Shown here: in pieces, positions 4,770 through 10,094 of the stretch
Numbering within the stretch: the stretch's first letter is position 1
How the letters are laid out: each line of letters starts with the position of its first letter
IMG/VR virus record: IMGVR_UViG_3300017934_000076
Span: 1-20,956 of that record
DNA length: 20,956 nucleotides
From: a virus
Strand: one strand, 5' to 3'
Notes under the pieces: model-generated
The model's input: the letters and a program-made list of their open reading frames with translations, nothing else
The model's database searches: none
What the model was told of the DNA's origin: nothing
Made by a program: the position numbers and the translations under genes

Positions 4770-5052
4770 ATGGCAATAACTACTACAAGTACTCTGCCAG
4801 CGCCGGTGCAGCAAAGTTTCAGCTATAAACTACTTTCTGTACCCGTGCCAAATATGATCCATAAAATCCCTGCTATGCGTAAAAATATGCCCAGAAATGG
4901 GGGAACTACGCTCAGAATGCGGCGTTATAATCCATTAAATACAGCTATGGTTCCATTGGGAAATACTGGTGTAACACCTCCTGCGCAGAATTTAACTGCG
5001 ATTGATATTGATGCAAAAATATCGTTTTACGGTAAAGGTGCCGTAATAGTTT
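4770..5052 (+). CDS. Major capsid protein, N4-gp56 family, exon 1
   Basis: ATG 4770 follows TTTGGAG; about 94 residues are encoded before an in-frame TAA at 5052-5054. The sequence is the N-terminal third of N4-gp56-type capsid proteins: IPAMRKNMPRNGGTTLRMRR, NPLNTAMVPLGNTGVTPPAQ and the strand ending SFYGKGAVIV. The fold stops mid-domain and resumes in frame at about 5857, so this is an interrupted gene and not a short one. Joining bases 4770-5052 to 5857-6527 gives a 317-residue protein of normal family length. The exact 5' splice position is not proven: a U at 5052 fits frame and ends in U as group I exons do, but upstream positions such as 5050 remain possible. Confidence 0.85.
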
Positions 5053-5201
5053 AATTGTAAGACCTATGTTCAATTAAACGAGCAGGTTAACACATTGTTC
5101 TTTGAAATTTCTTGGTTTTGCAGATTAATAGCCTGCTTTAAACCCGCGGTGATTGACTTGGAAGCCCTAACGTAAAGACGAGGGTGACAAGGCGCAAGTG
5201 T

Positions 5202-5681
5202 TTAGAGCTTATTGCTATAATTTCGACAATGAAGTGAACGCATTTCATCAAAATATTTTTTTCTTAAAATTAGTGTTTCTTGATCAATTGGTTGAATTCC
5301 TTGAAATCCTTTTTGCATGCCAGTTTTTTCAAATGTTTTTCTCATTTCGATCATGATTTCACATTGACGTTTTTTTATAATCAAATAAGGAAGTAATAAA
5401 TGACACAAATGTGTTAAAAGATTTCCACTTACTATCCATCTATATACTTCTTTTCGTGAATTCTGCGGAGTTTGTTTAGCGGTATATATAGTAGATCTTC
5501 CCCCAATATTTTCAACAAGCCAATCTATTAATAATTTATCAGTATTAGTAACTTCCATATTTGTTTGATAATACAAACTTCCAGTTTTAGGATTAGAACT
5601 GAAATTTCCTATATAAATGCTTCCTTCACCGTCGATAATTCCAGCTAAATAAGCTATTTGGGTTAATGTATATTGTTTCAT
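5202..5681 (-). CDS. LAGLIDADG homing endonuclease, antisense inside the capsid intron
   Basis: 159 residues. The start at 5681 (MKQYTLTQ) is chosen because AAGGAT lies six bases upstream; longer reading frames begin without a ribosome site. Residues 12-20, LAGIIDGEG, are a single LAGLIDADG motif with E19 in the catalytic acid position, so the enzyme should act as a homodimer cutting a long asymmetric site, presumably the intronless capsid gene. The motif is followed by SIYIGN and the usual beta strands and basic C-terminal half. The gene occupies the P6 loop almost exactly: its stop lies six bases from the P6 5' strand. It runs opposite to the capsid mRNA, so it cannot be translated from the late transcript. 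A maturase role is possible in the family but unlikely for an antisense product. Confidence 0.9.
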   Translation of the reverse strand: MKQYTLTQIAYLAGIIDGEGSIYIGNFSSNPKTGSLYYQTNMEVTNTDKLLIDWLVENIGGRSTIYTAKQTPQNSRKEVYRWIVSGNLLTHLCHLLLPYLIIKKRQCEIMIEMRKTFEKTGMQKGFQGIQPIDQETLILRKKYFDEMRSLHCRNYSNKL

Positions 5682-5711
5682 AATATCCTTATAGTTTAAA
5701 TGTGTATATAC

Positions 5712-5739
5712 ATTATATAACAAATAAAATAAATGTACA
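5712..5739 (-). promoter_or_regulatory. Candidate promoter for the antisense endonuclease
   Basis: On the minus strand TGTACA (5739-5734) and a perfect TATAAT (5717-5712) are separated by 16 bp. The predicted start near 5704 leaves a leader of about 20 nt before ATG 5681, with AAGGAT in it. The -35 box lies next to the P6 3' strand, so the whole expression unit fits inside the intron loop. Confidence 0.55.
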
Positions 5740-5856
5740 GCGTGAGAGACTAAGTCCATGGGGATTACAACTGTAATCAAGCGATAGTCCGAGCTTAATA
5801 GAAATATTAAGAGGAAGGAATAACAAGACTTCCCGCCTCTTTGAGGTCATTATAAG

Positions 5857-6527
5857 TAACAGGTATCTGTACACTACAAAACCAAGATCCAGTTTTAAAC
5901 GAATGCGCCGCTCGTTTAGGCGTAAGTTTAAGACAAACAGAAGACCAATTAACACGGGATATGTTAGCTGCTACCGCAGGATTTATTAACTGTACCGGTG
6001 GCGTTAATGGTGACAATCCTACTGAAATTACACGTGCTGATGTTGATGAAGTGGTACGAACATTATTGAATAATAATGCTTATACCATTATGGATAACAT
6101 TGAAGGCGAAGATAAATTCGGTACAGCGCCGGTGCGTGATGCATACTTTGCATTATGTTCTACCCAGTTAACGGGTAATTTAGATAACGTTGCAGGATTT
6201 ATTCAAAAGAATCAGTATCCTGCACCAATGAATGCTCTTCGTTCTGAATGGGGCGCAATTGGTAACCTTCGCTTCTTGGTAAGTTCAATTGGCAGTTTCT
6301 TTGCAAATGCTTCTGCATTAGGCGCAAATGTCTTTAATATTTTCTGCGTGGGTATGGAAGCATACGCATGCATAGAACAAGATGGCTATAGCGCAAGCTT
6401 TATTTATAGACCGCCAATTTACGATGGCCCATTGGCATTAAATGCATCAGTCGGCTATAAGTTTGCAGAAGTGCCCAGAATAACCAACGATTTGTGGGTC
6501 ATCAATTTACGCGCTACATTAGCTTAA
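5857..6527 (+). CDS. Major capsid protein, N4-gp56 family, exon 2
   Basis: The frame is open from 5856 onward and has a TAA at 5853-5855, marking the upstream limit. It begins TGICTLQNQDPVLNECAARL and continues SLRQTEDQLTRDMLAATAGF, the conserved segment that follows the YG-x-x-V strand in N4-gp56 capsids. Later parts include VDEVVRTLLNNNAYTIMD, the family-typical TAPVRDAYFALCSTQL, GNLRFLVSSIGS near the middle of the exon, and the C-terminal beta strands ending VINLRATLA. An internal ATG at 5961 could be misannotated as a separate gene start but has no ribosome site. The protein forms the capsid shell, and continuity with exon 1 requires intron splicing. Confidence 0.9.
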
Positions 6528-9632: not shown

Positions 9633-10094
9633 ATGGGAAAACATTGTGGAACATGTATATGTAAATATAAAAGAAAAACAGTTTACAAAGAGTATCCATG
9701 TGAGCATTGTGGAACTCCTTGTAAAAGACAACAAAAACGAGCTTTATGTTCATTGAAATGTAGATTGTTAGGCAATATAAAAAAAGAAAATGGTTGTTTT
9801 ATATGGCAAGGAAAAATAGGTATAGATGGTTATGGGCAAATTATGATCAATAAAAAAAGGCAACGAGTACATAGAGTATCATTTGAAACTTTTAAGGGAT
9901 CTATCCCTCAAGGCTATTTAATGTGCCATACATGTGATACGCCTGCATGTATAAATCCGAAGCATTTATTTTTTGGAACTCATGAAGATAATATGTATGA
10001 TATGGTTAAGAAAGGGAGAAGTTATAACGGGGGCTATAGAAGAATGAGAACAATAAAAAAAATAAATAATGATACTAATATTACTACCCCTTAA
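9633..10094 (+). CDS. HNH homing-type endonuclease, free-standing
   Basis: 153 residues. The C-terminal half has the HNH signature: VHRVSFETFKGSIPQGYL, then C98-H99-T-C-D, A-C-I-N108-P-K-H111-L and GTHEDNMYDMVKKGR, which form the metal-binding beta-beta-alpha nuclease core. The N-terminal 45 residues carry Cys pairs (C5-x2-C8, C23-x2-C26, C39-x3-C43) likely to bind zinc. Such genes are mobile and spread by cutting alleles that lack them. Both neighbours look intact and no intron core was found around it, so it appears free-standing. Low GC and the sequestered ribosome site fit a recent insertion in the late operon. Confidence 0.9.
   Translation: MGKHCGTCICKYKRKTVYKEYPCEHCGTPCKRQQKRALCSLKCRLLGNIKKENGCFIWQGKIGIDGYGQIMINKKRQRVHRVSFETFKGSIPQGYLMCHTCDTPACINPKHLFFGTHEDNMYDMVKKGRSYNGGYRRMRTIKKINNDTNITTP

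Follow-up and report, generated by a model that had tools for sequence, protein, structure and literature searches.

A 28-nucleotide mini-intron with group I splice signals, probably excised by the ribozyme of its neighbour, in the capsid gene of a soil phage

In this soil phage, two inserts, A and B, and not one, interrupt the capsid gene (window, the whole stretch of DNA analysed, 20,956 nucleotides; all positions refer to it). It is likely that the capsid pre-mRNA contains a complete mobile intron, B, together with a non-autonomous mini-intron, A, which is excised by the ribozyme of its neighbour. This reading is drawn from the boundaries of the inserts, from covarying pairings, from the fixed position of a helix that would tether A to the next intron and from the joint occurrence of the two introns.

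The capsid gene and its two inserts

Exon 1 (4770–5033, plus strand) encodes the N-terminal part (MAITT...ISFYG) of an N4-gp56-like major head protein, as assigned by its match to phrog_1357 and by homologue alignment. An earlier note on this DNA had stated that the capsid frame stops at 5052, and the frame from 4770 does run into a TAA at 5052–5054. Eighty capsid relatives in IMG/VR were compared, most of which are intronless in this region and read ISFYG-TYVQLNEQV-TLQNQDPVL. Positions 5062–5087 of the window (ACCTATGTTCAATTAAACGAGCAGGT) correspond to the stretch of the homologues that lies between ISFYG and TLQNQDP, in another frame. Since TYVQLNEQV is carried by the intronless homologues and encoded by 5062–5087, the region holds two introns. 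Mini-intron A (5034–5061, plus strand; AAAGGTGCCGTAATAGTTTAATTGTAAG) is 28 nt long, contains an in-frame stop, ends in G and is missing from the intronless homologues. It is followed by a micro-exon of 26 nt (5062–5087, plus strand), identified by homology to the intronless genes, which codes for TYVQLNEQ(V). Intron B (5088–5869, plus strand, 782 nt) lies between GCAGGU and UACAC, beginning with UAACAC and ending with GGUAUCUG, and it is supported by the U.G pair of P1-B, by P10-B and by P7 covariation. Exon 2 (5870–6527, plus strand) also matches phrog_1357 and the splice gives back TLQNQDPVLNE; the E values of the two capsid halves against this PHROG major head protein are 9.4e-9 and 1.2e-17. 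Once A and B are taken out, the window reads like the intronless genes, and so do the other loci with both boundaries, save one (L209), whose contig begins within exon 1 and which was translated in the wrong frame.

The earlier note had proposed a single group I intron with a 5′ boundary at 5052 and exon 2 from about 5857. The group I intron in the capsid gene stands, while its single number gives way to two and both boundaries are displaced, as the homologues show coding resuming inside the supposed intron. A junction of 5052 with 5857 does yield an open frame, but the joint peptide KGAVIVLTGIC was found in none of the intronless homologues listed. The comparison with intronless homologues, suggested in the note as a check, thus returned one continuous capsid protein, with insertion points other than the proposed junction. 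Both the 28-nt insert and the 26-nt micro-exon had been missed, and they are a greater surprise than the antisense endonuclease gene on which the note had dwelt. That an essential capsid gene is the host had been considered to make the case more striking; the host is indeed a capsid gene, and the argument adds little, as intron splicing in capsid genes has already been reported for Cluster J mycobacteriophages (PMC3706429).

The capsid relatives in cultured phages are 23–31% identical, and four relatives were found in the genome collection, in unrelated bins. Group I-sized inserts were also observed at no fewer than 20 positions in the capsid genes of L004, L043, L046, L047, L050, L084, L216, L238, L260, L270 and others; a single gene often has several of them, and the motifs ATTGACTTGG and GTAACAGATTG reappear from site to site. 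A free-standing HNH endonuclease gene is present at 9633–10094 of the window, among phage structural genes.

Intron B and its antisense endonuclease gene

By its pairings, intron B is a group I intron. Its internal guide sequence, GCCUGC (5131–5136, plus strand), pairs with exon GCAGGU (5082–5087) to form P1-B, which places a U.G pair at the 5′ splice site. The first pair of P10-B is formed in 37 of 38 copies (shuffle maximum 31) and the second in all 38, and the terminal G is present. Helices P3, P4, P6 and P8 were read from the alignment. The 5′ strand of P7 (5746–5752, plus strand) contains a bulged A5747 and faces a 3′ strand at 5785–5790. The canonical core claimed in the earlier note found support here: beside the conserved bulged nucleotide, two variable P7 pairs covary, being formed in 32/32 aligned copies with three pair types each, and none of 5,000 shuffles was as good.

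The Rfam Intron_gpI search that the note had offered as a check turned out less favourable, as the window scored only 20.7 bits (E 0.01) against a gathering score of 50, which is a detection rule and not a defining trait. At the gathering score, no group I match was obtained in the window and 19 related loci. Copies of intron B without an ORF, which measure 195–298 nt, also stay below this score, and the intron B family seems to lie outside the reach of the model. In one locus (L254) the core at site B has been swapped for a more typical group I core, which reaches 40.1 bits (E 1.7e-8) in the same model; A, P1-B and the 3′ end are kept despite the swapped core, and the LAGLIDADG gene is on the sense strand there.

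The P1-B loop (5088–5130 of the window) is conserved and contains an exon mimic (TTCTTTGAAATTTCTTGGTTTTG..), complementary to intron B's own guide. The mimic is usually present in intron B copies with A and a long P1 loop, and in L261, L266, L273 and L275, which lack A, a run of A residues takes its place. This distribution is only suggestive, and it is a matter of speculation that the mimic could delay B until A is gone.

The LAGLIDADG homing endonuclease gene (5202–5681, minus strand, 159 aa) lies in L6 of intron B, between the P6 strands at 5193–5195 and 5740–5742, as the earlier note had described. Its product matches PF00961 (25.3 bits, cut-off 23.1) with the motif LAGIIDGEG, and phrog_5046 with an E value of 6e-26. 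In 28 of the 29 intron B copies longer than 650 nt, as counted by hand, the long ORF is antisense; the exception is the core-swapped L254. The Pfam scan of long ORFs covered four copies, among which L109 remained under the cut-off. The antisense endonuclease gene is a family trait of intron B. A tblastn search with the endonuclease gave no match in cultured phages. Sense-strand stretches weakly similar to it (23–24%) were observed in L075, L076 and L080, directly upstream of where the capsid exon matches. On the minus strand at 5712–5739, a promoter-like TGTACA-16-TATAAT and a ribosome-binding-like AAGGAT precede the endonuclease gene; the number of such promoter-like matches in the region is not above chance.

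The note's statement that antisense endonuclease genes are known mainly from nuclear rDNA introns agrees with the open-access literature searched, in which they are described for nuclear rDNA introns (PMC9548176) and none was found for phage introns. The orientation of the endonuclease gene of B, opposite to the ribozyme strand, is shared with the Didymium nuclear rDNA introns, whereas the latter have an enzyme of the His-Cys family in a P9.2 extension in eukaryotic rDNA, and B has a LAGLIDADG enzyme in L6 of a phage mRNA intron (PMC9548176). The core, splice signals and endonuclease gene of B are those of phage group I introns with homing endonuclease genes (T4, Twort, Bastillevirinae). Unlike these, B carries its LAGLIDADG gene antisense in L6, belongs to a capsid gene with at least 20 insertion positions and has a partner mini-intron.

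Splice signals of A and its helix with the next exon

In total, 63 distinct copies of A were found, with lengths of 28–75 nt. The 5′ exon strand UACGGU (5028–5033, plus strand) pairs with GCCGUA (5040–5045) to form P1-A, a helix of six pairs with a U.G pair at the cut after U5033. P1-A covaries, as TACGGT with GCCGTA in some copies and TATGGT with GCCATA in others. The guide strand AGGU of P10-A (5036–5039, plus strand) pairs with ACCU (5062–5065). The third pair of P10-A is Watson-Crick in 42/42 distinct copies (G-C 22, A-U 9, U-A 6, C-G 5), compared with a shuffle mean of 15.0 and a maximum of 25 in 10,000 shuffles; the guide base follows the free third base of a threonine codon, which takes all four letters across the phages. 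The terminal G is present in 59/59 copies. Divergent copies retain the pattern, with an exon start CAAU and guide GUUG in L271, and P1 UUUGGU with GCCAAA and P10 CCUGU with ACAGG in L269. As exceptions, two copies have only 1 and 0 contiguous P10 pairs, and four have 3. All copies examined for it (42/42) contain an in-frame stop and the lengths cover all three classes modulo 3, so that A cannot simply be translated through.

A third pairing, helix X, is formed between GUUUAAUUG (5049–5057, plus strand) of A and CAAUUAAAC (5071–5079) of the micro-exon, and stops 8 nt short of the 5′ splice site of intron B. Its mean length is 9.1 bp against 5.4 for shuffled sequences (maximum 6.4), and some of the helices in copies followed by B (class B) need a bulge. 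In 49/59 copies the distance from its end to the next 5′ splice site is exactly 8 nt, compared with 2.5% for shuffled tails. RNA folding of the window segment recovered both hairpins (z −2.7). With a separate tool and 13 ungapped sequences, 91.5% of the cells of the named structure were paired, against 32–47% when the partners were slid.

Where intron B is missing, another group I intron is found at site C (after GGATCCCGT, 50 nt past A) or site D (after GTGTCGCT, 86 nt past A), and helix X pairs with the exon just before C or D instead. Cross-tests bear this out: class C helices have 9–12 bp at C and 1–4 at B; class D helices have 8–11 bp at D and 2–4 at B or C; and the means for class B helices are 8.3 at B, 3.0 at C and 4.9 at D. 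By eye, the core of the site-D introns of L285–L290 looks to be of another type than that of L091, so that A seems to serve more than one ribozyme. In the whole viral collection, a pattern for the class B form of A, with the exon running on unbroken across site B, gave 0 matches. A scan for A with neither site B nor site C occupied gave seven contigs, each of which has an intron at D, and nine contigs have intron B without A. Hence the ribozyme does without A, while A was not found without a ribozyme.

In the first survey pattern for A, most of P1-A and the initial bases of helix X were prescribed, and for this reason only the positions left variable and a survey keyed on intron B alone are free of this bias. 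As the copies of A are related, sequence counts overstate independent events; in a poorly resolved tree of 18 rows, P10 pair 3 changed at least four times and helix X pair 4 at least seven times. Among the loose-pattern matches listed, mostly chance matches, there was no convincing case of an A-like insert outside capsid genes.

Proposed removal of A by a neighbouring ribozyme

The defining trait of a group I intron is a ribozyme of its own. A appears to lack this trait while using group I splice signals (P1 with U.G, P10 and terminal G): its 28 nt are nearly all taken by P1, P10 and helix X, with no core P3–P8 of its own, and in copies of 28–36 nt no P7 strands are available. The simplest account is that A provides the splice sites and the guide, and that catalysis would come from the neighbouring core. 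In this scheme, A would supply splice-site recognition only, through its own guide, which pairs with the 5′ exon (P1-A) and the 3′ exon (P10-A). Helix X would tether A directly beside P1 of the full intron, and with such a tether the ribozyme of that intron could take up P1-A. The neighbouring ribozyme would cut after UACGGU and join the exon at ACC, following the terminal G of A, and would also splice itself. Removal of A would take place at the RNA level and in cis, before the neighbour leaves.

T4 gene 60, in which ribosomes bypass 50 nt, likewise has a short non-coding stretch inside a phage coding sequence, with hairpins at the gap and an endonuclease gene near. It might be argued that A, with a gap flanked by hairpins and an endonuclease gene nearby, is skipped by the ribosome in the same way, and we consider this very unlikely. 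Matching take-off and landing codons are absent, since the take-off codon is GGU and 0/42 copies of A end in GGN (AAG, TTG, TAG, ACG, ATG, GAG, CTG and GTG being found); the pairings are of the group I splicing type, and under bypass it would be unexplained why P10 varies with the codon beyond the gap and why helix X shifts with the next intron. As A breaks the reading frame in every copy, a decaying capsid pseudogene with A as debris was also weighed, and its probability is negligible, because the exons are intact with ~90% protein identity across diverged contigs and A is under pairing constraint. Landing codons, lengths modulo 3, exon conservation and P10 covariation led us to reject bypass, frameshift, pseudogene and terminator as readings of A.

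Two further readings keep A as a spliced intron. Small degenerate group I introns of fungal rDNA (Phialophora PaSSU, 63–75 nt) are reported to self-splice in vitro and share with A the P1 with G.U at the 5′ splice site, the P10 and a pairing of the middle of the intron with the 3′ exon, and for one fungal intron, of 67 nt, splicing with almost no core was reported, so that size alone is no bar to autonomy (PMC3160393). That A is likewise an autonomous, extremely reduced group I intron with unaided splicing appears quite improbable: for these introns a P7 with a guanosine site and a terminal U are reported, whereas A, at 28–75 nt and in a phage protein gene, shows no P7, has G at its end and tracks a neighbouring full intron, and at 28 nt it has hardly a base to spare beyond P1-A, P10-A and helix X. 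Autonomy would also leave unexplained that helix X moves with the next intron and that A was never seen alone in the scans. In engineered trans excision-splicing, a group I core removes a short internal segment set by P1 and P10 (review PMC6155759), and A resembles such a segment in being defined by these two helices and in its proposed removal by a group I core. It differs in being natural, in having the guide inside the excised segment and in its tether helix, which points to the ribozyme. Excision of A mainly in trans, by free intron RNA and with the full intron already gone, could draw on these engineered ribozymes as a precedent; it is nevertheless unlikely, as helix X abuts P1 of the full intron, suggesting that both are folded in one precursor.

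Returning to excision in cis by the adjacent ribozyme, the comparison of sequences points to a natural class of guide-only introns of 28–75 nt, probably removed in this manner via a retargetable tether helix, which could be an addiction device. If the full intron were lost precisely, A would stay unspliced and the capsid gene would no longer work. Speculatively, A could travel with the full intron when this homes, through co-conversion of the flank, and would then make loss of the full intron lethal. Users of gene callers should be aware that A-type inserts disrupt capsid genes and that neither Rfam nor ORF finders detect them.

If A splices alone, it would instead be a new variant of the small fungal introns. 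To our knowledge, A would be the smallest intron with group I signals. If the proposed mechanism is true, A separates substrate from catalyst within a self-splicing RNA. A similar split is thought to have been passed through by spliceosomal introns, from a different ancestor. The capsid gene of a bacterial virus would then offer a compact and directly testable case, and would suggest how a mobile intron might reach a state in which it can no longer be lost.
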